This document shows positions 1,769 to 37,648 of a stretch of 64,000 nucleotides of DNA, piece by piece; positions within the stretch are counted from its first letter, which is position 1; every line of letters starts with the position of its first letter. The position numbers were made by a program, and so were the translations under genes. The notes under the pieces were generated by a model. The model saw only the letters and a list, made by a program, of their open reading frames with translations, was not told the DNA's origin and did no database searches. The DNA is taken from assembly GCA_026770025.1 (NCBI GenBank), contig JAMXDE010000006.1, positions 3,230,001 to 3,294,000 on the forward strand, read 5' to 3'. The stretch comes from Craspedostauros australis (taxonomy: Eukaryota; Bacillariophyta; Bacillariophyceae; Mastogloiales; Achnanthaceae).

Positions 1769-4700
1769 ATGCCAGGAAGAGGCGGCAGAGGCGGTCGAGG
1801 CGGCGGACGCGGTCGAGGTGGAGGCCGGGGATATGACAGCGGAGGATATGGTGGCGGTAGAGGAGGTCGCGGAGGCCGTGGCGGCGGAAGAGGTGGAGGA
1901 GGCGGCTACGGAGGTAAGTCCACCATACCATGCGACTACTCCACTCGGAGTCTGTGTTATCAGTATCATACATGTGATGCGTGTGATGGGTGCGACAGAT
2001 TCATCCACTGTCTGTCAATGCGTTTCATCTCCCCTCGACTACATCTCAAACAATCCATCCCAACATCTCGTCAACACAACTATTCTATTAAACTATATCT
2101 CTGTATCCATATCTTCCTTACTGCCCCTCACTGCCACTGCAACCATCATTCTGCACACGAGCAAAGGAGGTGGTGGCGGCAGAGGCGGAGGCAGAGGTGG
2201 TGGAAGGGGCGGCGGGAGAGGAGGCCGCGGAGGAGGCCGTGGCCGCGGACCAGATCTCTCAGGTCTCAAGTCCTGCATGACCAACATCATCCTGGCCACA
2301 GTCACCCCAGGCTTCAAGTTCTACCTCTACTCCGTCAACTCCACCAATGCCAAGGGCGGGCAGATCGAGAGTCGCCATCGTCGCACGGCGCTCTTCAATG
2401 CCGGCATGTGGGACGGCCTCCTCACTGGCATGTCGGAGGCTGCCAAGAAGGATCTCAGGCGACGCGTCTTCTTCAACGGATCCTTCTTCTTTTCGTCGCA
2501 AGTCATTCCAGGTCTGGAGCCAGAGAATCTGCCCCTCCAGCTACCCATTGAACACAAGGTGGCAGAAGGCGATGCGCTGGAAGTGCAGCACTGCGTGCAC
2601 TACCTGTGTCCCAACGAGCTCAGGCAGCCGGTCAAAGCAGCAGCTGCTGGCGGCAAGCTCGACGTGACCTTCGACCTGCGCTGCGCCAACTGCACCAAGG
2701 CCTTCACGGACGTCTCCTCCATGCTTCAGCATTGGTGAGTTGCAACATCATGCTCTTCTACGTACGAGCATGAGTAAGAGTGACTGTGTCTTGCGTTATA
2801 TCATATATGTATGGTACATCGTGCCATTCATTTCAGGAGTGTTGTACTCTCATCATTCATCCAGTGCTATCCAATGCCATCCAATGCTCTGTACACCGTA
2901 CTTGTCGTATCATGTAAATCTCACTTCATCACGCTCTTTGCAACACGCCATGCCATGACCATGACAGCCAACAACAAGGGCATCAGCCAGTCTACCTCGA
3001 TCCCGACACAAAGTCGACCGATGTCAAGCCCCAACCCGCGACCCTTCCGATGTTCTCATCCTACGTCAACGTTGCGCTGGAACGCGCTCTCAGCGAACGG
3101 CTCTCTCGATGGGGATCCGAGTTCATTGATCCAAAGAAGTTCACCGAGCCGACCGATCGGCAGGGCAATTCGATGGGCGTCAGAGTCTACGAGGCCATAT
3201 CCTGCACATTCGGCATCGTGCGATCCAAGAAGACGAACATGTGCCACTTGGCGCTCACGGTCGATCTTCGAGCCAAGGTGGTCCGCACCATGAGCGTCTT
3301 GGACCACATCACCGACAGACCCAGCTCATTCCGCCCCAACGAGAAGGAGCAGAAGAGGCTGCGCCGAGAATGGATCGGGGAGGTGGTGATCGCCATGCAC
3401 GACAAGAAGTGCTACTCCGTCACAGACCTCATCTTCAACAAGAGCGCAGCAACGCTGCCCGTGGAAGGTCTGGGCATGTCGCATGCGCAGTACTTCAAGC
3501 AACGTCGCAAGATCGACCTCAAGTACCCCAACGCCGTCCCCGTGGTGGCTGTTCAGGGAAGGCGCAACGACACCATCTACTTCCCAGCAGAGCTTGTTGC
3601 CGGCAACGAACTCGAACGCCGCGTCAAGGAGCAGCTGCCCATGATCGCGAGTTACAAGCCAGATCAACGCAACGCCGCCATCGAGGAGATCCGCAAGTAC
3701 CTCGTCCCCGGCGCGCAAACAACGAGAGGCGCGTCTGGATTCCTCCCAGCACTGGGAATCATGGTGAGCAACGGCCGGCTGCCTGCCACAGCCAACGTCA
3801 TGCCCATGCCGCAGATCCTGGCGGCCGGTGTGGAGATTCCCAAGCACAAGCGCGAAAACTGGGCACCCAATGTGGGCATGGCCAGGTTCAACGTGCAAGC
3901 CAACAGCGCCAACACGCTCAACGTGGTGCTCGTGTGCAATGAGAAGATTTCCAAGGGAGCCGACAAGGTGTACCAACGCATCCGCAACACCGTCAACAAG
4001 TTCAACACCTACTTCCGGCTCGGCGACAGACCGTACAAGATCGTGCAAGCTGGACATGCGGAGAAGCACTGGGGCGCTGTGGAGAAATCCATGGCCAACG
4101 AGAAGAAGCCGAACATCTTCGTCTTGGACTTCAACTATCCCAAGGGAGGCACAGATCCAGCGTACTCGGTGGTCAAGCAGATGCTGGCGTCCAAGGGGCA
4201 TCTATCGCAGTTCGTCAACTTCAGCAACTACCGGCACGACGAGCCACGAGACATGAAGCGCAGTGACATCATCCTGCAGGGCGTATCCAGGCAAATCCTG
4301 CAGAAGGCGGGCGTCCGTCTGTGGTACGTGACGCTACCAAAGCCACTGCCAACGCCAACAGTCTTTGTCGGAGTCGACGTCTTCCACGCTCCTCGCAAGT
4401 ACGACCCCATCGCCAAGGAACGACGCGCGAAGGCGTCCTGCGCAGCAATAATCGTGCAAGTCGTGCGCGACGGTGGCAAGGGTGGTAGCAAGAAGTCCAC
4501 TTCGACGGCCGCTTCAAAGATCGAGATCTACTCCAAGACGTACGCCAGGGAGGCTGGAATGGAGTACGATCTTGGGGTGGCGCTGAAGGAGACGATGGCG
4601 GAGGCCATGAGTGAGCTCAAGGTCAACCCCATGTCATGCATCGTGTGGCGCGATGGTATCGGAGACGCCGCATTCGACCTGCAGGCCAAGGAGGAGATCA

Positions 4701-5536
4701 GGGCCATCCGCGAAGGCCTGAACGGAACGTCTGTGGGCCAGAAAGGGGGCGCAGCAACGGCAGGAGGCAAGGCCAGGAACGTGCCGCTGTCATACGTGGT
4801 GTGCCAGAAGCGCATCGCCACGAAATTCCTCACGAAGGATGTGGCAGGCGAGCAAGATGGCAAGTACGGAGCTCCATCGGGGACGCTGGTCGAGGGCATC
4901 CAGGGCATCAACTACAACACCTTCTATATCAACGGTCGCGCGCCGCCATACAGCACGCCAAAACCTGTCCGTTTCATCGTGGTGGAGCAAGACCCTGCAT
5001 TGAGGAACGTCCACCTTGCCAACCTGACCTGGGATCTGTGCCATGACTATCCCAATTGGGCAGGACCAATCAAGGTCCCAAGCGTATGCCAGATGGCACA
5101 CAAGTAAGTCGCTGCGGGTTGATGCGTGCTGGAATGCGCTGCAGATATAGGCGCATTGGTATCAGGATGATGATTGTTCGTGTCATTTGTGTCATGGGCT
5201 GTAATGCAGCACAATGCAATGTACCGCATCGGATGCCTTTGCAATCGTTGTGCGTGTGTTGCCTTGCACGTATTGTGCTTGTGTCGGTTTTCTGTTGCAC
5301 ACGTCAAGCACTTCCGCTTCTCACCTCCCTGCTTTTCATACTTCTGGTGTTGCCTGCTTCCCCTGCACGCACGTTGGTGTATCGTTTTGCGTACCGTCGC
5401 ATGATGAAACGCAACTCTACTCGATTCAATCGCACATGCACATACGCACAGACTGGCTGAGCTTGGAGGAGGAATGCCTGATTGCGGCAGGTCGATAAAT
5501 GCCAAGAAGCTCAAGAACACCGTCCATTTCCTCTAA
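1769..5536 (+). CDS. AGO: PIWI-clade Argonaute with RGG N-terminus and C2H2 finger
   Basis: Small-RNA-guided silencing protein. I read four exons, 1769-1913, 2167-2734, 2968-5103 and 5452-5536, all GT-AG and in phase, giving 977 residues. Residues 1-75 are almost pure RGG/RG. An N-domain-like region follows. Residues 221-243 form C-X2-C-X12-H-X5-H, a C2H2 finger completed across intron 2. A PAZ-like region lies around 300-440 and PIWI around 620-977. Catalytic-type residues are visible at D708 (VGVDVFH), D800 (WRDG) and H949 (MAHKLA); the glutamate finger is not certain. The tail NWAGPIKVP...AHKLA resembles PIWI rather than AGO-clade proteins, and the protein ends in the usual hydrophobic NTVHFL. 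Slicing competence is inferred from the conserved residues only. An internal finger is not part of the usual Argonaute layout. Confidence 0.92.
2397..2754 (+). other. Zinc-finger-coding end of Argonaute exon 2 and donor site
   Basis: The 3' part of exon 2 encodes the CANC and LQH part of the C2H2 finger. It is followed at 2735 by a GTGAGT donor. The second histidine is supplied by exon 3 (from 2968), so a functional finger exists only in the spliced message. Confidence 0.65.
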
Positions 5537-6041: not shown

Positions 6042-9000
6042 TCACACTTGCTTCCTTCGCACACGATTCTTGCTTGTTGGTCGTCTCATGGCCGGCTCAT
6101 CCTGCGGACTTGGTGCTGGACCGCTGAGTTCTTGAATGTCCGGAATCGTGCTGATGTCCCACGCAGCCGCATTGATGTTGGTCGTATCCAGATTTTGCCG
6201 GGCGAAGTCTTGGGTGGAGCTGGCAGATGAGTACGTCGACATGTTCGCGGAGGAGGCCGACTGATGCCAACGACCAGCACCCTCATTTTGTGACATGGAT
6301 CTCCATGAGCTCGTGTCCGTGTCGAATGAGGCCGCATCCGCGTCGTAGCGTGCCGAGTACGAGTCATCATCTGAGCTTCCAGTAGATGCAAATGCGAAAT
6401 CGTCCGCCGTATGGTTCGACATAGGACCAAGGAGGTTGTCGGATGGCGTCCTCGTCGACATTGGTTCGGTCGTTTGGAATTGTTGCTGGCTGTACGGCAT
6501 ACTCCCATTTCCACCACCGTCATTGCTGCCGCCACCGTCGTTGTACTCGTACTCCACTTCATCGAAGGATTCCGCGATCGCGTCGGATGCATCGCCCACA
6601 CCGCAGCTGCCCGTCAAGTCGAAGCTGGTCAAGTTCTTGCGCAGATCGCTCCATGCCTGACTTGTCGACGGTTGCGTGAGTCCCAAGTCAAATGCCGGCG
6701 GCTCCGCTTCAACTTCATCGACAACCGGTGGCATTGCAGCCACGAGGCGCGGGTCCGACTGGTGCTGCTGCTGCTGCTGAGGTGGTGCAGTGTTGCCAGC
6801 CATGCCTTGTGCACGTGCGCTGTTTGCATTCGTTGAGGCCCGTGCCATGCTTGCCGAAGGAGCTTGCGCGACATGGCCGGCTGCGGCGCTTCCCCCGGCA
6901 CCTCTCTGATTTGGTTGCTGCGCACCCACCATCAAGTTATCGGCGCGTTTGGAAACATCCGGGTTTTGGTTGGTCACACGCACCAGCGCTTGCATTTCGT
7001 ACCATGTCTTCCCTGCCGCGGTCGCAACTTGGATGGGGAGACCTTGTGCGTTCTCCACGAAGGCCGCTTCCGGGAATGCCTCCAGCACCATCTGCAATGC
7101 CGACGCTGAGGAGAGCTCTTCGAAGTCTTGTGCGACGTACGTTGGCGTGCGTGCGGCTATGTGCAATGGATATTCGAACGCCCCGTGCACGCCGAACGAT
7201 GGCAACGACGCCGAAAGCGGGTGGATTGCCAGGATGAGCTGAATGATAATCGGAGGGGTGTCCTCATTTGCCAGTGCCGCATGAAGCAGGAGCGAATCCT
7301 TCGGTGACTTTGCTATCTCGCTCGAGTTCGTCGGAGTGCAGTACCATATCCAGAACTTGCATCGTTCCCACCATGGCCCCAGCTGTGGTGGGATTGCCCT
7401 CGTATCGATGGCATGCCGGATCAGGTCGTAGTTCTGCGGAATCAGTACCCAGTCTTCGATCTCGTCCTCTGTCATGATCAGATCGCCGCGCACAACGAAG
7501 CTCCGTGATGCGAAGGACTGATTCATGGAGCTGACCATGGTCTTCTTGGATTCCGTGGCATCATCCTCCATGGTGTAGCTGTAGTCGTTCATCCGCGAGT
7601 GCATCGTCGAAATTCCCGTGGCGTCATCATCGCTTTGGTGTTCGCTGATTGCCATCCTTTGATCTTCCCCGATCTCTACCTTCTCCTCTTCACCATCTTC
7701 ATCTTGCGTCTGTTGCGCTTTGCCCTTCTTCTCCTTCTTGCCTCGCTTTTTCTTCTTCTTTTCCTTCTCTTTCTCTTTCTGTTTGTTCTTTTTCTTTTTC
7801 TTGTCCTTCTTCTTTGACTTCTTTTTCTTCTTGTCGTCAACACTGCTATCGTCGTCGCTGTCGGGATCCGCGTTGCTCCCATCTTCATCATCGTTTCCTT
7901 TCTTGCCTTTGCCTTTGGTTTTCGCCTTCGCCTTGTCCTCATTGTCTCCATCAGCATCGACTTCACCCTCTCCTTCCTCCTCGTCGTCATCGTCTTCGTC
8001 TTCCACCCCGATGACATCCGGCACCATGTGCCTGTAACAGAACTGCAAATAATGCGCCGAGACCATACCGCGGCCAGTCGCGTCACGAAAGGCCGATGGC
8101 TGCGCCAACGAGGCCCCGCTGGCAATGGCCTGCGGAAAGATGCGCAGCAGTTGGTACGTGATGCTGAACTGCTCCAGCTCCTGCTTCTCGACGATGCTCT
8201 GCACCGCGATGGCGCGCTGTCTGGGCGTCATGTGGGTCCATTCCTGAGAATGACGCGCGTGTGCCCACAGCGCGGCGTTGCGGTTGATGACGACGGCGTT
8301 CGTGGGGAAGAGGCTGTTGTTGTTGTTCTCGTTTGTGATGAGGGTCGCCGCGAGTTGGAACGGATAGAGCTTGGTGATTGGGTCGCGTTGGGATAAGGTG
8401 AGGCGGTCTATCTGCGTCAGCGATTGGAGGAAGTCCCATGTTTTGTAGCTTGCGATGGCATGATGCAACGGCAGTCTCTTTTCGTATCGGTTGCGCGTGA
8501 GGGAGGGATCGGAGGCGAGGATGATGCGGACCACCTGATCCATCGGCGGTTCCGGGTCGATGGGGAAGTCTATGCCAAGGCCCTTGGAATGGGGGAAGAG
8601 ATTGTAGCGCCACGACTTGCAGATGAGATGGATGAGCAGGGCGTTGTTGGCTGGATGGGGCAGCGCGAGCGACTTTGGCGACAGGACCATGCAGAGCTGG
8701 ATGAGCGACGGTGGCGTCTCCGGGTTGGATAGAGCGGCATGCAGGAGATGAACCTTGCGGAATTTGGTCTTATTGGTCTCCACGTTCTCGTGACCGCAGA
8801 GCTTCATGAGGGCCGTGCACTTGTCCCACCACTCCGCGCAGGCGAGCGATGGCTTGCGGTTGCCGAGCGCCTTCTGCTCCATCTCCTTGCGGAACGTGGG
8901 GATGGTGTCGTCGTCCGCGAGCTGGCACCCGGAGGTGTAGTACTTGGTGAGCAATCGCCTGGCGGCCTCCATGGTCTCCTTGTTCTGGACGGGGAAATGA

Positions 9001-10844
9001 TGCAGGAGGAGATGCAGGTTCTTGATGGGATACTGTCGGCGCATGAATAGATGCAGCGCCGCCGATGCCAGGGTGGGATCCGTCTGCAGGAGCTTCTGCG
9101 AGGCGAAGAGGGCGACCTCGATGACGGAGGGCGGGGCGGCGTGATCGATGACCCACAGGAGGAGCTCTCGCTCGCTGGGCTTGAAGATCTTGCGTCTCGC
9201 CGAGTACGCCGACAGCATGAATCGCACCTTCTTCCAGTGATTCTCCTGCAGCTCCTGCCATTGAATCTGATCCTGCGTGCGCGGGATGCCCCACGTGGTC
9301 TTGGCGTAGGGGTCGTTGGTGATGGAGGTGAATTTGATCTTGTGAATCTTGGAGGTCAATAGCTTGGAGGATGATTCGGGCACCGAGGCCGATGATTTGG
9401 TGGTGATGGCGGTGCGCGTGGAACGCAGGGACATGGACTGCATCATGAGGTGCGCTCTCGGGTCGTTGACTTGGCCGACGTTGGAGATGATGGATGCCAT
9501 CGACTTGCCCAAACCAGCGGCATCATCGTCATGGCCATGGCCAGCATTATCGTCATCTTCGTCGATGGCTGTCACCACGGCATCCGCGACGGTGGAATAA
9601 TGCGTCGTCCCGTCCTCCTTCTCCACGAAATCGTCTTGGTTGCGGTAGTACGATCGTGTGGAACGGGACGTGAAATCCCGCATCGACGAGTCTCCACGGA
9701 AGCTCCTGCCGTGCGTTGCCGTGATGACGGTCGCATCGTCATGAGCGTTGCCGTTGTCGTTGCCGTTGTGGTTGCTGTTGTCGTGGTACGTGGACCTGCT
9801 GCCACCAAACAGGCTGTCGTCAGAGACCATGGAAGCATCGACGATGGACGCGTGCGCGATGGGCATTGCGTCATGACCACTATCATGCTCAAGTCCGAGC
9901 TGATCGATATCGTCCACGGGCCTGACGGCGGGAATCTCCTCATGATGCTCCATGCCGTACTCCGCCGTGAGGATGGTGCGCTGGATGCAGTACCACAGCG
10001 CCGTGCGCGACGACGCATCCTCCTGCGCGATGCCAGGTATGTTGGCCCGCATGAGCTTGTCGATGACCTTGATGGACTTGCCGCTCTTGGTGGCGATGTG
10101 CAGCGGCAGCTGTCCGTAGTCGTCGCGGACCTGCGCGGCCATCTTCTCGGACTGCAGCGTGCGCAGGAGGATGCGATCGCCGACCTCGCGGATGGCGCAG
10201 AGGGAGTGCAGCGACGTCCTGCCGATGGCGTCGCATCCCAGCAGCGGCGAGATGGGGCGCGTGGGGTCGTTGATGAGCAGGTCCGGGTCGTCGTCGTCGT
10301 CCTTCTCGGGAAGGAGGTAGTTCTTGACGTTGATGGCGCCGCGCACGATGCGGAGGCGGCGCTTGGGCTTGGCAGCGGCGGCAGCGGTGGCCTTCTTGAC
10401 GATCTCCTGGTGCTTCTTGTGCTCCTCCTGGTAGTGCTGGAAGTCGTAGTTGAGCAGCAGCTCCCAGAGACCGTCCCAGTCGTTGTTGCGGATGCAGGCG
10501 TGGTAGAAGACGGCCTCGTCTATGTACTCGTCGTCCGTGGAGGCCAGCGACTGCAGCTTCGTGGGCGGCCTCCCGGTGCTGCCGCCCGCGCTCTGGTGCA
10601 GCTCCAGCTGCCGCTGCCGCCGCTTGTGCTCCTGGAAGGCGGCCAGCCGGTCCTCGATGCGGTATCCTATCTGCGGTTCCTCCTTCTTCTGCTGCTTCTG
10701 CTGGGTGCTGCCGCTCTGGTCATCTTCGGCCTCCTGGGCTGCCAAGTTGGCCTGCAGTTGCCTCTCTGACTTCGCCTTCTTCTTCTTGTCACGCTTGTCC
10801 GTCCAGCTCTCGTACAGCTCGAACACAGCTCCGACGCCCGTCAT
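6042..10844 (-). CDS. Large ankyrin-like repeat protein with Lys-rich segment
   Basis: Single open frame of 1600 residues with its ATG at 10844. Residues 1-120 are Gln/Lys-rich. Ankyrin-type helices appear early (GRTSLHSLCAI, YGQLPLHIATKSG), again in the middle (KRLPLHHAIASYKTWDFLQSL) and late (FEYPLHIAARTPT, GLPIQVATAAGKTW), separated by long insertions. A Glu/Asp block followed by a Lys-rich stretch lies around residues 940-1060, and the last 300 residues are Ser/Asp/Gln-rich and probably disordered. No catalytic or membrane segment is seen. The repeats suggest a scaffold or binding role, but that is only inference. The absence of introns across 4.8 kb is notable beside the multi-exon Argonaute. 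Confidence 0.8.
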   Translation of the reverse strand: MTGVGAVFELYESWTDKRDKKKKAKSERQLQANLAAQEAEDDQSGSTQQKQQKKEEPQIGYRIEDRLAAFQEHKRRQRQLELHQSAGGSTGRPPTKLQSLASTDDEYIDEAVFYHACIRNNDWDGLWELLLNYDFQHYQEEHKKHQEIVKKATAAAAAKPKRRLRIVRGAINVKNYLLPEKDDDDDPDLLINDPTRPISPLLGCDAIGRTSLHSLCAIREVGDRILLRTLQSEKMAAQVRDDYGQLPLHIATKSGKSIKVIDKLMRANIPGIAQEDASSRTALWYCIQRTILTAEYGMEHHEEIPAVRPVDDIDQLGLEHDSGHDAMPIAHASIVDASMVSDDSLFGGSRSTYHDNSNHNGNDNGNAHDDATVITATHGRSFRGDSSMRDFTSRSTRSYYRNQDDFVEKEDGTTHYSTVADAVVTAIDEDDDNAGHGHDDDAAGLGKSMASIISNVGQVNDPRAHLMMQSMSLRSTRTAITTKSSASVPESSSKLLTSKIHKIKFTSITNDPYAKTTWGIPRTQDQIQWQELQENHWKKVRFMLSAYSARRKIFKPSERELLLWVIDHAAPPSVIEVALFASQKLLQTDPTLASAALHLFMRRQYPIKNLHLLLHHFPVQNKETMEAARRLLTKYYTSGCQLADDDTIPTFRKEMEQKALGNRKPSLACAEWWDKCTALMKLCGHENVETNKTKFRKVHLLHAALSNPETPPSLIQLCMVLSPKSLALPHPANNALLIHLICKSWRYNLFPHSKGLGIDFPIDPEPPMDQVVRIILASDPSLTRNRYEKRLPLHHAIASYKTWDFLQSLTQIDRLTLSQRDPITKLYPFQLAATLITNENNNNSLFPTNAVVINRNAALWAHARHSQEWTHMTPRQRAIAVQSIVEKQELEQFSITYQLLRIFPQAIASGASLAQPSAFRDATGRGMVSAHYLQFCYRHMVPDVIGVEDEDDDDEEEGEGEVDADGDNEDKAKAKTKGKGKKGNDDEDGSNADPDSDDDSSVDDKKKKKSKKKDKKKKKNKQKEKEKEKKKKKRGKKEKKGKAQQTQDEDGEEEKVEIGEDQRMAISEHQSDDDATGISTMHSRMNDYSYTMEDDATESKKTMVSSMNQSFASRSFVVRGDLIMTEDEIEDWVLIPQNYDLIRHAIDTRAIPPQLGPWWERCKFWIWYCTPTNSSEIAKSPKDSLLLHAALANEDTPPIIIQLILAIHPLSASLPSFGVHGAFEYPLHIAARTPTYVAQDFEELSSASALQMVLEAFPEAAFVENAQGLPIQVATAAGKTWYEMQALVRVTNQNPDVSKRADNLMVGAQQPNQRGAGGSAAAGHVAQAPSASMARASTNANSARAQGMAGNTAPPQQQQQHQSDPRLVAAMPPVVDEVEAEPPAFDLGLTQPSTSQAWSDLRKNLTSFDLTGSCGVGDASDAIAESFDEVEYEYNDGGGSNDGGGNGSMPYSQQQFQTTEPMSTRTPSDNLLGPMSNHTADDFAFASTGSSDDDSYSARYDADAASFDTDTSSWRSMSQNEGAGRWHQSASSANMSTYSSASSTQDFARQNLDTTNINAAAWDISTIPDIQELSGPAPSPQDEPAMRRPTSKNRVRRKQV

Positions 10845-16926: not shown

Positions 16927-19473
16927 CTACACCTCTGCTGTGTTGGTATCCTCTTCTGCTTTGCTGTGATGCTCGTCCTTGCCAACGAACATGGCCACTT
17001 CGAATGTGTTCATGGTGGGTGCTGCTTCGGCTTTGCTGTTGTTGTTGCAAGGCTCAATGATGTCGGCTTTGCTCTTGCTGGGTTGCTTCTTTCTCTTCTT
17101 GTCTTTCTTCTGTTGCTCAGCCTCCTCATTGGCTCTGGTTGTCGCAACGATTTGCTTCACCAGCAACGGAATGAGGCTGCTGGTTGTTGGCAGATTCGTT
17201 TTCAGGCATTGCAGTCCACTGACAGCCATCACATTGAGCGCATCATCATACATACCTTTGATGTCGGGCTTGGTGTATTTGAAGCCAGCTGATTTGCCTT
17301 TGTTGCCTGTTGCAGTTGGTTTCTTGGTGGTCGCGCGGGTTGCCTCATCCTCCTCCAACACGAAGTCCGTGTGAGACACAGTAACGCCGATCTCGTTGCC
17401 CTCCTTGTCGAATTCAGTGGACGTTTGTTTCCGCACATTCATGTGCAGTCCCTTGCGCTCCGTCACAAATTCGTCACCTCCTTTTGCAGCACAAATTGCG
17501 TAGGCAATCTGATGGTGGCGAACATACGCGCTAGCCACCTTGTCCAGCTTGAATTGTTTCCAACAGGTTCCACAAGCATTCCACAACGCCTCAGTGGTAA
17601 GCAATCGGCTTCCGTGGTGCTCACCTTGATACGCTGACACGTGTTTCGACATCGCTGGGAATATCGCATCGTCTTTCACATTCGTGATGGGAGAATTTGG
17701 TGGTTGCAGTCGTAAGTGCCATCCGCGACTGTCGAACTCCTCGTTGATGAATCTAAGTAGCTCCGTGTCTCTGTGTGGCCCTGCGCCATCCATCTGGTAC
17801 CGAATCACCACGTTCTTTCCGGTTTCGGCCTTGATTTTGCTGGCGAGCGAATCCAGTGCGGGGAGTTCTTTTTCGCGGAAGAATTTCTTGAGGCTGTACT
17901 TCGGCTTGGGCTTAACACGATGACCATCTGTTTCCTTGCTGCCCGTGATTTCCAGTGGTTGGAAGTACAGTTCACCCTTCTTGCGAGAGATTTTCTCAGG
18001 ATCAGGAAGGTGCTTGTACTTGGTCGGCGAGACCCAAGTTCGCTTGTACGTGGTCTTCTGCGCTCGGACCATGCGCCCAACACGTTCGAAGTTCACCTTA
18101 TACGCCTTTCCTCCTTCCGCAAAACAGTTATTTGTTGGGGCAAATGCTGTTGATGCAATTGCCATGGTCTTGTCAATGTGACACTTGTGATGCACAGTCT
18201 GCTTCACAGGCTTAACTCCCATCTGGGGCACATGTTTCAGATGCATGCGAGCGACAATGGAGTAGAACCACTTTTCGTCCATGTGGACAAGGACAACTTG
18301 CGTATTCTCAAACAGCTTAGCTGATTCCCAGAACACACAGAAGTCCTTAGCCCAGATGTCGCGCTTTGCTGTAGTGGTGCCATTGATCAGAGGGAGTATT
18401 GTTGTAGAACGGTACTCACTGCCTTCCAATCCCATGACGAATTTGCGGATACACTTCGGACCAACAACTTGCGGGTTTCCGCTGCCTGCCAGTTTCCATG
18501 CAATTCTGTCCCACGAGATTGCGCCATTGCACTGTCGCAACACATCCTGGAGCTCAAATCGCAGGAAGGGACCACGCTCCAACCACAAATCAGCCAGCAC
18601 TTTTGCGGATACCAGCTCTTCCGGCGAAGCAGAGGCATAGGCAGAAGCGATTTCGTCGTTCTTGAACTGTTGCTCTGGATGTCGAAGACGTAGTTGTTTC
18701 TCGAAGGCTGCGCGCGGCGTGAAGTACTGTCGTTGCTTGATGGGGCAGGTGAAGATGCTGCTGCCTGCGTCACTTCGCTTCTTGCATTCGAGCGTCTCTG
18801 TTTGGAATTTCAAAATGTTGCGCCCTACTGTGGTGCGGTCGATACCCCATGCATGGGCGATCAATTTCGTGTTGGCTGGAATCGCACCCAAATTGAAATA
18901 GAGAACAGTGTAGTTCCGATTGTCTTCTTTGTCAAGGCGTTTGCCAGCATCACCAGGCTTAGCAATACTACGCCCTCCATCCTTTCGCAACCATCCTTTT
19001 GTTTTCGCGCCTTTCTTCATCTGCTTCGTGAGATGAGCGATTGCTGTTGCTTTCTGACGCCGCGAGACCTCGAGAAAAGCGGCGATTTTGGCTTCTTGCG
19101 ATTCCGTGGTAGTTGGGGATGGTGTGGGGGGCTTAGCCTTGTTGTTGGCACGCGTGGCAGCGATGGAGTGATGCTGGGGAGAAAGGAGGGAAGGCTTAGC
19201 AAGGCCACCAGCAGTGCGAGTCCGCGCGAAGGTAGCGATGCTGTGTGGTGCGCACAGATCCTCACGAACAACATACATTCGGCTCTGCCCCATCACTGGG
19301 GTCACCATGACCATTGCCGCCTCTCCTGGTGCAAGAGGCCCATCACGTTTGATTGTAGCGCCATCCGTGGTCTGCTTCATTGCAAACTCAACATGGCATA
19401 CGCCCAGGTCACGGATCCTGTCATTGGAGTCCGTGTGAGGTGCCACCTTCACACAATCACCAGCGCGCAGCAT
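16927..19473 (-). CDS. Mariner-like (DD39D) transposase
   Basis: Intact 848-residue frame with an ATG at 19473. The central part is an IS630/Tc1/mariner-type DDE transposase: HMDEKWFY with D399, YQMDGAGPH with D562, and PPNSPITNVKDD with D602. That leaves 39 residues between the second and third aspartates, the spacing of plant-type mariner-like elements. A helix-turn-helix-like region (NTKLIAHAWGIDRTTVGRNILKF) precedes it. The N-terminal ~130 residues and a Lys-rich C-terminal ~130 residues are extra compared with mariners of 350-500 residues. No clear terminal inverted repeats were found by eye, so the element ends are undefined. The intact frame suggests recent activity or domestication. 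Confidence 0.88.
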   Translation of the reverse strand: MLRAGDCVKVAPHTDSNDRIRDLGVCHVEFAMKQTTDGATIKRDGPLAPGEAAMVMVTPVMGQSRMYVVREDLCAPHSIATFARTRTAGGLAKPSLLSPQHHSIAATRANNKAKPPTPSPTTTESQEAKIAAFLEVSRRQKATAIAHLTKQMKKGAKTKGWLRKDGGRSIAKPGDAGKRLDKEDNRNYTVLYFNLGAIPANTKLIAHAWGIDRTTVGRNILKFQTETLECKKRSDAGSSIFTCPIKQRQYFTPRAAFEKQLRLRHPEQQFKNDEIASAYASASPEELVSAKVLADLWLERGPFLRFELQDVLRQCNGAISWDRIAWKLAGSGNPQVVGPKCIRKFVMGLEGSEYRSTTILPLINGTTTAKRDIWAKDFCVFWESAKLFENTQVVLVHMDEKWFYSIVARMHLKHVPQMGVKPVKQTVHHKCHIDKTMAIASTAFAPTNNCFAEGGKAYKVNFERVGRMVRAQKTTYKRTWVSPTKYKHLPDPEKISRKKGELYFQPLEITGSKETDGHRVKPKPKYSLKKFFREKELPALDSLASKIKAETGKNVVIRYQMDGAGPHRDTELLRFINEEFDSRGWHLRLQPPNSPITNVKDDAIFPAMSKHVSAYQGEHHGSRLLTTEALWNACGTCWKQFKLDKVASAYVRHHQIAYAICAAKGGDEFVTERKGLHMNVRKQTSTEFDKEGNEIGVTVSHTDFVLEEDEATRATTKKPTATGNKGKSAGFKYTKPDIKGMYDDALNVMAVSGLQCLKTNLPTTSSLIPLLVKQIVATTRANEEAEQQKKDKKRKKQPSKSKADIIEPCNNNSKAEAAPTMNTFEVAMFVGKDEHHSKAEEDTNTAEV

Positions 19474-29480: not shown

Positions 29481-32093
29481 ATGACTTCGAACGACGAACC
29501 CAACACGAGCAACCGCGAAGAGACGAAGGCAGAAGATGGCCCAACCTTGCCACCTCCCACCAAGGAACCTGACAAACCTGCGAACCCAAGAGAGGACGAT
29601 ACAGGCAACCATCATCGCGCCCGACGACAAGCAAAAAGAGCCATCCCTTACGATGGAGGAACCGAGGAGAACGACCCCGACGACGTGTCCATCACCTACA
29701 AGCCAAGATCCAGCACGTTCAAGACCGCGGCCAACAAGACCGGCATCGACATCACGCCATTCGCACGAGCAACAGGAGACGGATCCATCGACAGATCAGC
29801 AAAAGCAGCATGGAGAGCCAGAGCAATCTGGTATAACAAGGATGAGGCGACGGCCGACCGCGAAAACCCGACCATCAAACAGTGGGAGCACTTCTTCAGA
29901 GATCTCGCAGACGGAAGGGTCACATCATTCGGGCCCATCACGCTGCCCAACAGAGACCCCACAAGAATGAGGCTCCTGCAATTCGTCATCAACGTTGCAT
30001 CCACCGATCCCCACGAGGTATTCAAAGTACATCTTAACGACGACGGCACGGTACGAACGGCAAGAGCAGTCAAAGTATGGAAGGCCGCGAATCGACTCAT
30101 GGGCTCCAACTACGATCTGGGAGCAGCACCTCTCGCAGACAACGACATCCACATCGACACAATGGAAGGCCTCACACTCCAGACGGAAGGCGCGGAAGCG
30201 AGCACAGCCAGGATGTCCACAAGCCAAGCATTTGCAGCCATGCCAATCGACACAACCACGGGATCCATCAGCACAGACAGCGAGTCGTACACCAGCCGCC
30301 AGCCGTCCAAACGCACCAGATTCAAATCTCCGAAACAGACAACCGACATGCCACGAGTCAGCCAGAACAGCACGAACAACTCGCAATCTTCAGGGACGAC
30401 AAGCAGCAACGATTCGTCAACTGACTCAGGCGTGACCAGACACAGAAGTGGCCCTCGGAACCCTGCCAACCGCAAGCCGTCCACAGACGACAACTCCGTC
30501 AGCTCAGATGAGGAATCCAACACATCCCAGGCAAAGATAGCACCACCGCGACACGAGCACACCACCAGATTCACAATCAAACTCAACGTCGACAGAACCG
30601 AAGACGACACCACAGCCGCAGTGCGAGAGCGCATCAAGCGATGGTTCCGGCAGGTCCGACGAATCGATCCTACAGCGGTGATCCTCCCATGGAGAGAGTC
30701 GGCCAACACAGGTCCCCACATCGCCCACTCAGGACAAATTCCAGAGAGAATGGAGGACCTCAGAACCTTCTTTCAAGGATTGCGAGCGCCATCCGGGGCA
30801 ACAGGAATCACGTACGCGAAAGTCCGCATCACCACCAGAGATGATCCCTTCGACATCACGGCAGACCGCAACGCGGAGCTCAACCCATACTACTACAACG
30901 AGCATGAGGGATTGTACAAAGCCCAGCTCCAAGACGCAGAAGAGGTGAAAGAGATCGGCTTCCTACTATACTCTGGAGGATTCACAGACGTGGACAGCAC
31001 AGTGGAAATCATAAACAGGAGCTTCCGACGAACAAACAGCGACATCAGAGTGGGCGGAAAGATGAAGAACATCATCCAGGTCAGCGACGAAACCAGAGAA
31101 AAGTACAGAGAAGGCAAGCGACACTGGACAGTCCAACCTTGGAGAGCGGTGAAGCTGGAAGTCGAAAGATCACAAGCTTACGCTGCGGTCGAAGAAGTCG
31201 CAAACCTCTTTAACACACGAGCGGAGAGACCGGGAGCCACCAACTTCCGGTTCTTGCCCGACAAGAAGTTTGAGCAAATGTCCCGAAAGAAGAGCGAGTT
31301 CCGAGACGGCCTCATGGCAAAACACCAGGCCATACTTGCAGTGATTGAGTACTCGGACTCCGATGGAGTACTGCACCTGGACAAGAAAGTCAAAGGCAAG
31401 GACAACCGCTCCATCACTCTCCGTAAACTCATACTCCGAGAGACAACCAACGACGGCAAACGGATCTTCCACAGTGTGGACAGAGCCCGAGGCACCGACG
31501 ACCAAGTCGTGGCGCACTCATTCCCCGAATACCTGGAACCAGCAAAGCATTTCATGAGCCTCCTGCCTGCAATCGCCCGACACAAAGTAGGCCCCAAAGC
31601 CGAAAAGTGGTTCAGTCCGGAGGTGTGGATTGCCAGCCTCAACATTGTGTACGACCCAGCGACCAACGACTACACGTCCCCTGACACGCACAACCTGGAA
31701 GACATCGCCGATGAAGAGTTCCCCGCCAGTGTGATCATCACCAATATCCCCGATATGATGCCCACCACTCACAGGCCAGCGGCTCTTGACAATCGAAGCC
31801 TGTTCAATCCCAACTCGACGATCGGCACCGCCAACAGGTCCATCGACTCAGCGTACACAGCTGCCCCCAATCTGACCACAGGAGACCAAACAGACAGCGG
31901 ATCCAACGCACCGAACACCCCCAACACAACCTCCCACACCACCGAAGGAATCCTGCGTACCGGCGCCAACACAAGATACAACCAGCCCCAGACAAGGGAA
32001 GCACAACTACTGGCACAGGTGCAAGCACTCCGGCGAGAACTTGGCAAACCCGACGGCGACCCTCCGCAGCCCAATGGAGGCCAGTCACCATGA
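29481..32093 (+). CDS. LINE ORF1 protein
   Basis: First frame of the retrotransposon, 870 residues. The N-terminus is acidic and Pro-rich. A first folded-looking block runs over residues 60-215, a long Ser/Thr/Asn-rich linker over 250-365 and a second block over 370-740 (starting TRFTIKLNVDR). The C-terminus is disordered. ORF1 proteins of this class normally bind RNA and chaperone it, often through CCHC zinc knuckles; I see none here, and no obvious RRM signature. Nucleic-acid binding is therefore assumed from position only. It ends in TGA that overlaps the ATG of ORF2. Confidence 0.85.
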   Translation: MTSNDEPNTSNREETKAEDGPTLPPPTKEPDKPANPREDDTGNHHRARRQAKRAIPYDGGTEENDPDDVSITYKPRSSTFKTAANKTGIDITPFARATGDGSIDRSAKAAWRARAIWYNKDEATADRENPTIKQWEHFFRDLADGRVTSFGPITLPNRDPTRMRLLQFVINVASTDPHEVFKVHLNDDGTVRTARAVKVWKAANRLMGSNYDLGAAPLADNDIHIDTMEGLTLQTEGAEASTARMSTSQAFAAMPIDTTTGSISTDSESYTSRQPSKRTRFKSPKQTTDMPRVSQNSTNNSQSSGTTSSNDSSTDSGVTRHRSGPRNPANRKPSTDDNSVSSDEESNTSQAKIAPPRHEHTTRFTIKLNVDRTEDDTTAAVRERIKRWFRQVRRIDPTAVILPWRESANTGPHIAHSGQIPERMEDLRTFFQGLRAPSGATGITYAKVRITTRDDPFDITADRNAELNPYYYNEHEGLYKAQLQDAEEVKEIGFLLYSGGFTDVDSTVEIINRSFRRTNSDIRVGGKMKNIIQVSDETREKYREGKRHWTVQPWRAVKLEVERSQAYAAVEEVANLFNTRAERPGATNFRFLPDKKFEQMSRKKSEFRDGLMAKHQAILAVIEYSDSDGVLHLDKKVKGKDNRSITLRKLILRETTNDGKRIFHSVDRARGTDDQVVAHSFPEYLEPAKHFMSLLPAIARHKVGPKAEKWFSPEVWIASLNIVYDPATNDYTSPDTHNLEDIADEEFPASVIITNIPDMMPTTHRPAALDNRSLFNPNSTIGTANRSIDSAYTAAPNLTTGDQTDSGSNAPNTPNTTSHTTEGILRTGANTRYNQPQTREAQLLAQVQALRRELGKPDGDPPQPNGGQSP

Positions 32094-35000
32094 TAGGCAG
32101 CCACAGACGGGCACAGTCCAGCCCGGACACCGACGGACCCAACACGCCAGGGAATTCGAGTTCGGATGAATCGAATCTCCAACAACAACACCTCGGCCAA
32201 ACCACCAACCAAAAGGCCAACACCCAAATCAGGATCGCCACCCTGAACGTAGGAAGCCTACCAACCGACCCTACGGACCCCAAAAACGACGACCTATGGC
32301 AAACCATACGCCAACACCACATTGACATACTGATGATGACGGAAGTGGGCATCAACTGGAGCAAGACCCCGTCGGACTCCACGCTTGCCCGCAGAGCTGA
32401 CAGACAGCTACGCATGGCGAAGATTGCCACAGCACACTGTCACACAGACAGCGACAGCCCACGACAATGGGGCGGCACCGCCGTACTTTCCCACGGAAAC
32501 ATCGCAGGCCGAGTCCTCTCCAGCAGCAACGACCCCGGAAAGTGCGGCAGATGGGCAAGCGTACTACTCCAGGGACGACAGGGCATCAAAGTCCGAATCG
32601 CCTCAGTTTACGTCCCCACCAAGTCCACCCAAACCTCTGGAACCGTCTACAACCAACAAGCTGTCAAAGCCGCCCAGCGCCAATCGACACTGGACCCCAT
32701 CGATCTGCTCATCGCCGACCTGCAAGCACAAATAGCACGATGGCAACAAGCAGGCGAGACAGTGATCATCGGAGGTGACGTCAACATGGACGTGCGACGG
32801 TCCAAGATCACCAACATGCTGCTCGCCGAAGGCCTCCAAGAACACCACACCAACAACATACGACACCCGTATGCCACCATGATCAGAAACAGACGACGGA
32901 CCCCCATCGACGGAATCTGGGCCACGAACGACGTCCAACCCAATCAAATGGGGCTGACACCGTACGGCAGCTGGGACCACCGCATGGTGTGGTTCGACAT
33001 CAGCACGAACCACCTATTCGGGCACACCAAGCAGCCAACCCCACCGTTCCGAGGGAGACGACTCCAACTCAGCCAACCCACCACGGTCAGAAGATACGTG
33101 CAGGTATACGAAAGCCAAGCTAACTCGCTACATCTTCTGGAACGGGCGCAATCTCTGAACCAAGCAGTCAGCAATGACCAGATGACACCGCTGCAGATTC
33201 AGACACTCGAGAAAATCGACAACGACAGAACTCAGGCCATACTCCAAGCAGAACGCAAGTGCCGCAAGATCAAAGCTGGGAAGGTGCCCTTCTCACCGAT
33301 AGTGTCCAAGCTGAGGTGGGAACATCAGTTCTGGACTCTCAGCATCAAGAGGAGACAAGGCCACAACATCAAAGGGCGCACAATCGACAAGGCGAAGAAG
33401 AAGGCCCACATCCAGCAACGCACGAAGCACATGACAACGGCAGAGATGCACCGGCACCGCAACGCGGCGTGGAAGGCATATCAACAAGAGAAGAAACACG
33501 CCACTGAACACCGGAGGTCATTCTTGGCCGACGACGAAGACGAGGTGGCCAACACCGGAGGCGACACAGCCAAATACCGAGCCCAGCTGCTACAGCGAGA
33601 GGAGACCAAGGCAACATACCGAAGAATCCGGTGGTCCCTGCAGGCGGATGACTCCAATGCCCAAGTGTCCATGGTCATAGATGACGGCCCAGGGGGTGAG
33701 AACAATCTGCTAACCGCAGGCGAAGAAGTGGCCCGAGCGTGCTGCAAGACCAACATTGACAAGTACAGCCAGGCGTGGCAAGCGGAAGTCTGCCAGCGAC
33801 CACTTAAGCGCAGCCTGGGGCGATTCGGATCCAGCCCAGCCGCCACCGCCATACTCAACGGCATCATCCCGTCGCAGATACGCAACAACACCAGCGACAC
33901 CCTTCACTCACTCCGGCGGCCCCAAAGAGCCACACCGTGGCCCCCCGACCTTCTACATATCAGCCAGGAAGACCATTCGCGAGGATGGGCACGCATCAAG
34001 GAAAGCACGTCATCGGGTCCTTCCGGAATACACTTCGGGTGCTGGAAGGTCAACGCAACCATCCCCGCCCTGGCAACCATCGACTCCATAATGAGAGCGA
34101 TCCCGTACCGCACAGGATACAGCCTCAAACGATGGCAGCAGTGCATCGACATACAGCTCCGGAAAAAGCCAGGCAACTTGGCAGTGACCAAAACGAGGAC
34201 CATCGGGCTCATGGAAGGCGACTTCAACATGAACAACCGACTCCTTGGCAAACAAGCCAGGTCGCATGCAGAATCCAATCTCACCCTGGCAACGGAGCAG
34301 TTCGGCAGCCGCAAGGCGCACACAGCCCAAGAAGTGCTACTCAACACAGTCCTCATCGACGACATCGCAAGGATCACAGGCGCACACTATGCCATATGCT
34401 CCAACGACGCAAAAGGGTGCTACGACCGCATTGCCCACCCCATCTTCAGCCTAGCCCTTCAACGGCAGGGAGTGCCTACAGCACCCATCACGAGCACTCT
34501 TCGCACCCTCCAGTCGATGACCCACCGCATCCGCACGTCAGCCGGAACATCAGTTTCGTCCTACTCCGGCAAGCAGCGCCACAACTACCTTCAAGGACTG
34601 GTCCAAGGGCTCGGATCCGCACCGACAGGGTGGCTGCTCATCAGCTCCGCCATTATTGATAGCATGAGAGCCAGAGGGTACGGCCTCAACCTCCCCGACC
34701 CCATCACTCGCGATGGCCATACCATCATGGGCACCGCGTACGTCGACGACACCAACATCATGCAAAGCCTGCCCCCCACAACACCCAACGAGCAAGCGCA
34801 ATCCTTCCAGGCAGCCGTGGACCACTGGGACGGCCTCCTTACCGCCACTGGCGGGGCACTGGAGCCATCCAAGAGCTTCTGGCAGCTCATACGGTTCAAG
34901 TGGCAGCGCACGAAGTGGGTCTACGACAACAAGATGCCCACCACGAACGTCTGCATGAACACTCCGACCGGAGAACGCACCCAACTAGCCCTCACCGGCC

Positions 35001-37648
35001 CCAGGTCGGCCTCCAAATACCTTGGCATGGTGTCCCGGAGAGACGGACGCCAGTCCGAACACACGCAATATCTGCTCCAGAAATCCCTCACCTGGGCGGC
35101 ACGCATCCGAGCGTCTCGCATCACCCGACAAGACACAGAGGTGGCTATCAAATCCGTACTTTGGCCATCGCTGCAATACTCGTCTCCGGCAACCACAATG
35201 TCCACAGACCAATGGAACAAAGTGATGAGCACAGCACTCACGACCGCACTGCCGGCCATGGGAATCGCCCGCACCATTGCACGCCAGTACGTGTTCGGCC
35301 ACAAAGACGCCATGGGAATGGGAGTACTGCACCTGTACACAGCCCAGGTGACGTCTCACTTGGAAATGGTTCTCAAGCACTTTGAACGCCCCACAGAAAC
35401 AGGACGACTACTACGCACCTCACTGCATCATCTCGAGCTGTGGACGGGATTGCCAGGGCTACTTCAACAGCATGAGAAAGCGTGGGGAAACTGGACCTGC
35501 TCCGGGTGGTGGCAAAACACATTCAAATCGGCGTCCAAGCTCGGCATCCAGATGACAGACCAATCCCACCCATCCAAAATCCCCCGGACCGGAGACAGCC
35601 CCATCATGAACCTCGCCATCACTTCCGGCCTCCATCGACAGACTCTGGCGCTCGCCAACGTTGCTCGACTACACCTGCGAGTGCTCTGGCTGTCAGACAT
35701 CTCCACGGCCGACGGAAGTCAGATACGACCGACGATCCTACAACGCGAAAGGCTGCCATCGAGAGGCATCACCTGGCCCAGCGTTGGCAAGGTCACCAAG
35801 TCGGCGTGGGAGGCGTGGGAAGCGGTCCTATCAACAGTGGCGGCCCCAGACCAGCCAGGATGGCACCTACGGACCCAACTCGGGCCATGGCAAGGCGCGC
35901 CGGCAGGGCGTGACACCCAACTACCGGATGGCACCATCTCCCCCTTCGACCGACCGGCCCCAGCAGCGGCCACGGACCCTCGCCCGGCCCTCGTGGTTGA
36001 CCGCGCTCTTCGCAGATCCGGCATGGCCATCACATCCAGCGGGAGAATCGACAGATCGCCAACGCCCGCCACCATACGAGAATGGCTGCATCGGAAAGGC
36101 CCCGCAGCGGAGGCAATGCTCCCCGATATACACATCCGAGGCGATGTCCATGCAATAGTTCGGTCCATCGCAGCCGGCACCTGTGTGGCATGCAGCGATG
36201 CCTCGGCCAAAGACCACAAAGGATCTGCCGCGGCTATCATCCAGAGCGGCCTGCAGGACGATGCGCACCAGATCGTGGCGACAGCCGCCGTTCCCGAGGG
36301 CTCTCACCCAACCGACTCCAACAGAGCGGAGCTTGCGGGGGTCCTCATATCCATTTGGCTCATCACCTCGGTAGCAGAGTGGTCCGACATCCAAGGTAGC
36401 GCCACCGTCGCCTGCGACAACAACAGGGCACTGCAGGCGATAGACCCTGACAGGTGGCCGGAGCCACGAAAGAAGGACTTCGACCTGTGGTCCGAGGTGG
36501 TCCGCAACCTTCGCCAGACCAGAGTCCGATTCACTCCCCAGGAGGTCAAGGGGCACGCAGACGACTCCGGTGAACCCATCACCGCCTGGGAGTCGCTGAA
36601 CGTCCTCGCCGACGGCTATGCAGGGTACCACTGGGATCGGTTCTATGCAAGCAGCTCCCGAGCCCCAGCAATGGTGGTGCCTACGGAAGGATGGACCCTA
36701 AGCACCGCTGCCGGTCCCCTCACCGATCTCGACTACTGGACAGTCTCGTCTCTCATCGACGATGGCGGCATCAAAAAGAAGTGGTGCGAAAGATGGGGAG
36801 CCTCCAGCCCGACGAACGTAGATTGGGAGCCCATGCGCTCGGTCTCCCGGAGATGGAGCGGAGGCAAGCGGCGAACGTTGCTCAAGCTCATGACGGGCAC
36901 CGGCGCCAGTGGCAAGAACATGCAGCGACGCCAGCAGGAGCAATCCGCAGAATGCCCCAGGTGCGGCAGGCCGGAAGACAACACACACATCCTCATGTGT
37001 CCCAGCGCTGCGAGCCAGTCCATTTGGGCCAAAGCCATCCTCAAAGTGCGGTCAATCGTGAGACCGCCCACCACCCCACCCGAAGTCGCCCAGCTAGTTT
37101 GCACGGCAATCAAGCGCATCACATCTGGAGGCATTCCTCCCTCAGGCATAAGGACGTCGCCCACTCAGAACATCCAGGTGAGACAGGCCAACATCGGTTG
37201 GGTAGCTCTAATCTGGGGCGGCTGGTCCACCTCGTGGCGAGACCAGGCCCCTCCAATGGCTCCTCACCGGAGACGACGTGCTCCCAAGCTGCTCCGAGAC
37301 TGGCAAGTGAGCATCACAAACCTCATGTGGCATACCGTCCTGCAACAGTGGCATGACCGCAACGAAACCAAGGCGGAGCAGACGTCGCAAGGCATGACGG
37401 CTCTCCTTCAACAACAGCTTCAACGCCTCCGTACAACACCCACCGACGCGATCCCAGCAGTGCTGCGACCGCTATGGTCCAACCCACCAGCAACAGCCCA
37501 AATCGCCGCCCTAGTCCCGTGGGTCCAAGCGATGCAACAAGGACTCGGCCTCGCGGCACCGGACATCCCGACCGTACTCACCAACTGGATGAAAAACCAG
37601 CGACGTCGCCACCGAGCACCAGCCACTCGCCCCTCGAACCCAGCCTGA
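32090..37648 (+). CDS. LINE ORF2 polyprotein: endonuclease, RT, RNase H, zinc knuckle
   Basis: A frame of 1852 residues. An APE-type endonuclease covers about 45-310: ATLNVGS, the Glu in MMTEVG, VYVPTK, GGDVNMD, DGIWATND and SWDHRMVW. The reverse transcriptase covers about 560-950, with SNDAKGCYDRI and the active-site YVDD at about residue 884. A helical connection with the HKDAMGMGVLHLY motif follows. RNase H lies around 1365-1490 with the full acidic set: CSDAS, NRAEL, ACDNNRA and KGHADD. A CX2CX7HX4C knuckle (CPRCGRPEDNTHILMC) is near residue 1621. It would nick target DNA and prime reverse transcription at the insertion site. No stop or frameshift is present. Confidence 0.95.
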   Translation: MIGSHRRAQSSPDTDGPNTPGNSSSDESNLQQQHLGQTTNQKANTQIRIATLNVGSLPTDPTDPKNDDLWQTIRQHHIDILMMTEVGINWSKTPSDSTLARRADRQLRMAKIATAHCHTDSDSPRQWGGTAVLSHGNIAGRVLSSSNDPGKCGRWASVLLQGRQGIKVRIASVYVPTKSTQTSGTVYNQQAVKAAQRQSTLDPIDLLIADLQAQIARWQQAGETVIIGGDVNMDVRRSKITNMLLAEGLQEHHTNNIRHPYATMIRNRRRTPIDGIWATNDVQPNQMGLTPYGSWDHRMVWFDISTNHLFGHTKQPTPPFRGRRLQLSQPTTVRRYVQVYESQANSLHLLERAQSLNQAVSNDQMTPLQIQTLEKIDNDRTQAILQAERKCRKIKAGKVPFSPIVSKLRWEHQFWTLSIKRRQGHNIKGRTIDKAKKKAHIQQRTKHMTTAEMHRHRNAAWKAYQQEKKHATEHRRSFLADDEDEVANTGGDTAKYRAQLLQREETKATYRRIRWSLQADDSNAQVSMVIDDGPGGENNLLTAGEEVARACCKTNIDKYSQAWQAEVCQRPLKRSLGRFGSSPAATAILNGIIPSQIRNNTSDTLHSLRRPQRATPWPPDLLHISQEDHSRGWARIKESTSSGPSGIHFGCWKVNATIPALATIDSIMRAIPYRTGYSLKRWQQCIDIQLRKKPGNLAVTKTRTIGLMEGDFNMNNRLLGKQARSHAESNLTLATEQFGSRKAHTAQEVLLNTVLIDDIARITGAHYAICSNDAKGCYDRIAHPIFSLALQRQGVPTAPITSTLRTLQSMTHRIRTSAGTSVSSYSGKQRHNYLQGLVQGLGSAPTGWLLISSAIIDSMRARGYGLNLPDPITRDGHTIMGTAYVDDTNIMQSLPPTTPNEQAQSFQAAVDHWDGLLTATGGALEPSKSFWQLIRFKWQRTKWVYDNKMPTTNVCMNTPTGERTQLALTGPRSASKYLGMVSRRDGRQSEHTQYLLQKSLTWAARIRASRITRQDTEVAIKSVLWPSLQYSSPATTMSTDQWNKVMSTALTTALPAMGIARTIARQYVFGHKDAMGMGVLHLYTAQVTSHLEMVLKHFERPTETGRLLRTSLHHLELWTGLPGLLQQHEKAWGNWTCSGWWQNTFKSASKLGIQMTDQSHPSKIPRTGDSPIMNLAITSGLHRQTLALANVARLHLRVLWLSDISTADGSQIRPTILQRERLPSRGITWPSVGKVTKSAWEAWEAVLSTVAAPDQPGWHLRTQLGPWQGAPAGRDTQLPDGTISPFDRPAPAAATDPRPALVVDRALRRSGMAITSSGRIDRSPTPATIREWLHRKGPAAEAMLPDIHIRGDVHAIVRSIAAGTCVACSDASAKDHKGSAAAIIQSGLQDDAHQIVATAAVPEGSHPTDSNRAELAGVLISIWLITSVAEWSDIQGSATVACDNNRALQAIDPDRWPEPRKKDFDLWSEVVRNLRQTRVRFTPQEVKGHADDSGEPITAWESLNVLADGYAGYHWDRFYASSSRAPAMVVPTEGWTLSTAAGPLTDLDYWTVSSLIDDGGIKKKWCERWGASSPTNVDWEPMRSVSRRWSGGKRRTLLKLMTGTGASGKNMQRRQQEQSAECPRCGRPEDNTHILMCPSAASQSIWAKAILKVRSIVRPPTTPPEVAQLVCTAIKRITSGGIPPSGIRTSPTQNIQVRQANIGWVALIWGGWSTSWRDQAPPMAPHRRRRAPKLLRDWQVSITNLMWHTVLQQWHDRNETKAEQTSQGMTALLQQQLQRLRTTPTDAIPAVLRPLWSNPPATAQIAALVPWVQAMQQGLGLAAPDIPTVLTNWMKNQRRRHRAPATRPSNPA

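Follow-up and report, generated by a model that had tools for sequence, protein, structure and literature searches.

Eukaryotic Argonautes have a highly conserved order of domains, and we know of no solved PIWI structure with a zinc finger in its N region. The question raised by the locus examined here is whether a predicted Argonaute of the PIWI type contains such a finger, and, if so, how the finger is accommodated in the fold and what it might do. The locus lies in a window of 64,000 nucleotides (C4:3230001-3294000), part of a genome of 74.8 Mb in 90 contigs. The explanation that we favor, and to which we give about an even chance when it is taken as a whole, is a slicing-competent PIWI-clade Argonaute in which a strand-turn-helix element of the N domain has turned into a one-zinc C2H2 finger.

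The predicted gene occupies positions 1769-5536 of the window on the forward strand. Its four exons (Table 1), when spliced, are translated into 977 amino acids, from the ATG at 1769 to a stop codon that ends at 5536, and the complete model, with the same three introns, bears out the coordinates proposed in the initial annotation. The protein begins with an RGG-rich tail (window positions 1769-2252), which is broken by intron 1; residues 1-76, encoded by exons 1 and 2, are 91% Gly or Arg and include 13 RGG. Alternative acceptors for intron 1, i.e., 2169 and several further ones in frame, would alter only this Gly-rich tail.

Table 1. Predicted features of the finger-bearing Argonaute gene (coordinates in the window) and the location of the second Argonaute of the same genome (genome coordinates)
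Feature	Coordinates	Strand	Remarks
Exon 1	1769..1913	+	Start codon and first part of RGG-rich tail
Intron 1	1914..2166	+	GTAAGT...AAAG
Exon 2	2167..2734	+	Remainder of tail, N-domain-like region, finger residues C221, C224 and H237
C2H2 motif, first part	2682..2734	+	CANCTKAFTDVSSMLQH and 2 bases of codon 238; Pfam matches to models of the zf-C2H2 type do not reach the cut-off
Intron 2	2735..2967	+	GTGAGT...CAG; splits the finger
C2H2 motif, second part	2968..2983	+	Last base of C238, then QQQGH including H243
Exon 3	2968..5103	+	Linker and MID positions from general Argonaute layout
Intron 3	5104..5451	+	GTAAGT...CAG
Exon 4	5452..5536	+	PIWI C-terminus, end ...NTVHFL
Second Argonaute	C1:3517001-3522653		Multi-exon, divergent

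Intron 2 deserves the closest attention, because His243 is part of the protein if this intron is spliced as modelled; its retention would add one Trp after H237, followed by a stop. The donor at 2735 (TTG/GTGAGT) is, as judged by eye, the sole good one among the donors tested near the finger. With acceptors scanned to 3300, this donor keeps the Argonaute frame when joined to 2967, 3093 or 3294, and gives an open but wrong frame with 3185 or 3272; weak donors, for example 2712, also yield several open in-frame pairs. Residues 239-280 are kept by acceptor 2967 only, and they contain the SSYVN segment that is aligned with TSFVN in the second Argonaute of the genome (see below), so that acceptors 3093 and 3294 would remove a stretch with landmarks common to both proteins. 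The third-position bias of the gene is maintained across codons 210-250 (GC3 of 0.80 vs 0.74 for the whole gene; the overall GC of the intron is 0.44). The predicted gene model is good but unproven.

The assignment of the protein to the PIWI type, made in the initial annotation, is upheld by profile searches. The PAZ (residues 362-465, 8.3e-12) and Piwi (residues 633-956, 2.1e-28) models of Pfam both match above cut-off, and no ArgoN or L1 (linker-1) model was listed for the whole protein or for the 44-residue piece used in the finger searches. The catalytic set DEDH is complete (D708, E770, D800 and H949, assigned by visual inspection of HMMER alignments to PIWI structures). PIWIL1, EfPiwi/Piwi-A and Siwi (PDB structures: 9s0z, 7kx7 and 5guh) have the same PAZ-PIWI order, the same tetrad, and, in common with our protein, the C-terminal stretch YNW-G-I-VP--C--AHKLA; its N region, with the C2H2 motif, sets the protein apart from these animal and sponge PIWIs, as far as can be said from printed PIWI alignments that start at residue 331 or later. 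The predicted protein is apparently an active PIWI-like slicer.

In the comparison of the whole protein with PDB, the top four of the 36 rows listed are PIWI proteins (60.9-68.3 bits); they are followed by AGO4 (53.8 bits) and six AGO2 rows (48.2-48.4 bits), which come before the first Piwi-like 2 row (48.1 bits), and Drosophila Piwi (42.5 bits) and Siwi (38.0 bits) are lower still. When the PIWI domain alone is used, the first 12 of the 35 rows listed consist of 11 PIWI rows, several of which belong to one protein, and HrAgo1, and all of them precede the first AGO row (37.3 bits); in this search, LCHDYPNWAGPIKVPSVCQMAHKLA aligns with 25 residues of Piwi-like protein 1. Because the PIWI-domain ranking puts these PIWI rows before every AGO row, the notion that the protein has a greater affinity to the PIWI than to the AGO group is supported, in the sense of a score ranking, not of a phylogeny.

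The motif itself spans residues 221-243 and reads C221-A-N-C224-T-K-A-F228-T-D-V-S-S-M-L-Q-H237-C-Q-Q-Q-G-H243, i.e., C-X2-C-X12-H-X5-H with the canonical Phe at position +4 after the second Cys; as the initial annotation had stated, the second His is contributed by the next exon (H243 in exon 3). A PROSITE-type C2H2 pattern, taken as C-X2-4-C-X3-[hydrophobic]-X8-H-X3-5-H, has a single match in the protein, at residue 221. Among 20000 shuffles of the whole protein, 11 contain this pattern, which was picked after having been seen, and 1 contains the exact spacing of the motif. Shortly N-terminal of the motif there is a further cluster of Cys and His residues (H190, C191, H193 and C196; window positions 2589-2609), which could provide extra or alternative metal ligands.

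Searches with sequence profiles give a less definite picture, and the claim of a C2H2 finger has to be qualified accordingly: it stands at the level of a sequence motif, the Phe at +4 included, and every Pfam finger match is below cut-off. No zinc-finger family matches above the curated Pfam cut-off, either with the whole protein, for which the best finger model has an E-value of 0.034 and the OTU1 model covers residues 216-244, or with the 44-residue piece, for which the best finger models reach 20.3 bits against a cut-off of 26.9 and 20.6 bits against a cut-off of 30. Nine families are listed for this piece, all below cut-off: six of C2H2 types (zf-C2H2_2, E-value 6.8e-4; ZNF451 C-terminal, 7e-4; OTU1, 0.018; zf-C2H2_4, 0.062; ZNF451 sixth, 0.073; PF00096, 0.091), two zinc ribbons, and an unrelated hydrophobin, which takes the third rank (0.0036). 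None of the nine is a U1/JAZ-type model, in a search where HMMER filters drop most weak matches. An NCBIfam search returned one chance match only.

When the same 44-residue piece is compared with PDB, 39 of the 41 sequences listed at E-values of up to 10 are zinc-finger proteins (identified by name or by their known nature); of the remaining two, one is a designed helical repeat and the other a protein of an R2 retrotransposon. In this search, the lowest E-values are sums over several fingers; 2ep3, a 46-residue chain with one matched stretch, has an E-value of 0.018, and the best single stretch among the five printed alignments has 0.061. We infer zinc binding by the motif, and a finger at this place is likely but not proven.

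The second Argonaute helps to place the motif in the N region. A six-frame search of the genome finds at least two places with a Piwi domain, the present gene and C1:3522024. The gene at the latter place has many introns, its ArgoL2 and PAZ matches are below cut-off, and its PIWI domain has, by eye, RNGG where RDG is expected, so that slicing has probably been lost and the protein is probably not a slicer. In a MAFFT alignment, for which the sequence of the second Argonaute was joined by hand and which has 21% identity, GKLDVTFDLRCANCTKAFTDVSSMLQHCQQQGHQPVY stands opposite RFDGVYLKEVA--TISLDNLADCVRMARGEGPFKAL; the SSYVN/TSFVN landmark follows, and then DPK-F-EP in both proteins. The second Argonaute has these common flanking landmarks and no Cys pair in the stretch aligned to the finger. 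Compared with the second Argonaute, the present protein is longer by about two residues at the finger cysteines and by some 16 in the stretch directly before the finger.

It is this small number of extra residues at the cysteines that favors a conversion in place over an added domain, and an inserted foreign domain, which was also considered, was dropped for the same reason. The register of the alignment is weak: a local alignment is confined to residues C-terminal of the finger, and 20 of 1000 shuffles reach its score; a global one, made on a chosen stretch with other gap costs and equalled by 9 of 1000 shuffles, puts the finger region elsewhere. That the finger would be a rebuilt strand-turn-helix of the N domain, not an extra domain, is only modestly supported. 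The position between the N domain and PAZ given in the initial annotation is refined accordingly, as MAFFT sets the finger on the strand-helix of the N region itself, in a weak register. Neither a profile made of both Argonautes nor one exon of the second, searched by itself, gave a PDB match.

AlphaFold2 models, built without alignment from contiguous exon 2 translations of 161 and 48 residues, both ending before H243, have pLDDT of 39.0 and 45.4, respectively, values too low to be informative, for or against, on the clustering of zinc ligands. In the model of the shorter piece, at its pLDDT of 45.4, strands at approximately 205-209, 212-221 and 224-228 are followed by a helix at 232-235, and the last three of these elements are in the strand-strand-helix order of a finger, with H243 outside the piece; at this confidence the order does not count as evidence.

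The N domain of Argonautes serves as a wedge at the 3' portion of the duplex of guide and target, and the mechanism that we propose builds on this role. The strand-turn-helix of the N domain at residues ~212-243 would have become a one-zinc C2H2 finger, with the two cysteines at the turn after the strand and the two histidines on and after the helix; the finger would consist of the strand and helix of the domain itself, made rigid by zinc. This stiffened part would face the guide-target duplex on its 3' side, where it may steady or read duplex RNA, with protein docking as the second choice. Contact with RNA is preferred because of the place of the finger and because C-X2-C-X12-H-X5-H is the spacing of RNA-binding fingers of the U1/JAZ type; the likeness to that type would be one of spacing only, the family being absent among the nine listed by Pfam.

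Other readings of the same data have to be weighed. The four residues may have come together by chance on the strand-helix of an ordinary, divergent PIWI N domain that binds no zinc. The sub-threshold Pfam scores are compatible with such an accident, and so are the low-confidence AlphaFold2 pieces and the abundance of other Cys and His residues in the region (H190, C191, H193, C196 and C238); moreover, scans of viral contigs and of bacterial and archaeal genomes yielded no orthologue in which conservation of the ligands might be seen. The rarity of the pattern, and even more so of the exact spacing, in shuffled sequences speaks against chance, and we regard this reading as rather unlikely. The gene model may also be at fault, if the transcript is spliced from a donor further upstream, or to acceptor 3093 so that residues 239-280 are skipped; the finger would be incomplete in either case. 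The donor at 2735 does give open, in-frame products with 3093 or 3294, and so do several pairs in which the donor is weak (2712, for example), but acceptor 3093 would delete the very SSYVN/TSFVN segment that is aligned with the second Argonaute, and the other in-frame donors are, by eye, of poor consensus; we regard an error of this kind as very improbable.

A subtler alternative accepts the finger as real and denies it a partner: zinc would replace the hydrophobic core of a rearranged N domain, in a purely structural capacity. The two or so extra residues at the cysteines in the MAFFT alignment may represent such an in-place rebuild, in the weak register noted above, and a zinc finger that stands alone is rarely enough for sequence-specific binding. 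As a full account of the finger we find this possible, if on the unlikely side; it overlaps with the favored explanation in everything up to the last step, and the likelihoods that we attach to the different readings do not sum to one. For the last step taken by itself, a zinc site with a structural role and nothing more is almost as likely as RNA contact. The favored explanation, a rebuilt N-domain finger in a slicing-competent PIWI-clade protein, adds to the structural site a probable contact with duplex RNA on the 3' side of the guide.

The genome has other components of RNA silencing, with two RdRP and three RNase III matches, and a single PAZ match, which is in the finger-bearing gene (the domain counts of the genome search are lower bounds). 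An exon-wise search of the genome with the finger, in which the best candidates were scored, matches this gene alone, and there is therefore no sign of its origin from another finger gene. No orthologue in the viral-contig scan or in the scan of bacterial and archaeal genome contigs is what one expects of a nuclear eukaryotic gene.

The chlorophyll-binding family has 61 matches in the genome and the silicon transporter family has 88 in an exon-wise search, as fits a photosynthetic, silicifying alga of diatom type. Of the silicon transporter matches, 32 cover at least 480 of the 513 model positions, and 28 of these 32 are without internal stop; two on different contigs (C9 and C61) are 98% identical over 533 residues, and in an alignment of three 500-base upstream flanks, the two from C9 are very alike and the one from C54 is not. 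In a survey of Thalassiosirales, 1-6 silicon transporters per genome are given for 37 genomes (PMC10700740); the count obtained here may reflect a strong recent expansion or an effect of the assembly.

Elsewhere in the window, positions 29481-37648 contain two long ORFs, the second of which has, by eye, text similar to endonuclease, reverse transcriptase and RNase H, and probably represent a LINE-type element. An ORF of 848 residues on the reverse strand (16927-19473) appears by eye to be transposase-like, and ankyrin-like and BTB-like ORFs are seen, also by eye, at 6042-10844, 39456-41339, 43863-45476 and 57108-58601. An Rfam scan of the 64,000 nucleotides and a tRNA scan of the same sequence with the bacterial code returned nothing.

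Comparable proteins include the AGO-like proteins of Phaeodactylum tricornutum and Thalassiosira pseudonana, which are described as diatom Argonautes with PAZ and PIWI domains that occur together with Dicer-like and RdRP genes (PMC3155517, PMC4247016, PMC3145265). Neither PMC3155517 nor PMC4247016 uses the word zinc in its main text, and the same finger may sit unnoticed in these proteins. No PIWI protein is reported for the two diatoms in PMC4247016 and PMC3145265. An Argonaute of a further diatom, Chaetoceros tenuissimus, is named in PMC8613185 (accession GFH61989.1). The Argonautes of Ectocarpus and Phytophthora are likewise from stramenopiles, and the one from Ectocarpus has a disordered N-terminal extension and DEDH, but these proteins are grouped in the AGO clade in the two papers concerned (PMC12867755, PMC6284064); the word zinc is absent from the main text of both. 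A published tree puts the diatom homologues outside both main groups (PMC6284064). Fingers with a long His spacing, of the U1/JAZ type and the OTU1 type, have the same C-X2-C-X12-H-X5-H and Phe at +4; unlike them, the present motif is a single finger inside an Argonaute, with no family match above cut-off. Judged by titles and the beginnings of abstracts, searches of open-licence papers listed no Argonaute with an embedded zinc finger; novelty is not established by this, and a new variant of Argonaute is credible, with a function that we infer.

The Argonaute N domain participates in duplex unwinding, as stated in PMC6284064, and a metal-binding motif within it, if true, would be a new way of tuning the domain that unwinds the duplex; the finger could change the grip of the protein on RNA or on its partners. 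Diatoms may even use a PIWI-clade slicer whose N-domain wedge has turned into an RNA-binding zinc finger that grips the 3' end of the guide-target duplex, with zinc tuning loading, slicing or release, a scheme that we consider quite unlikely as it stands. The small RNAs of P. tricornutum are for the most part 25-30 nt long, match transposons and have a 5'-U bias, and no PIWI protein was found there (PMC4247016; see also PMC3145265). Whatever the role of the finger, the PIWI-like DEDH slicer of the present genome, with its diatom-like features, is a concrete candidate effector of such small RNAs.
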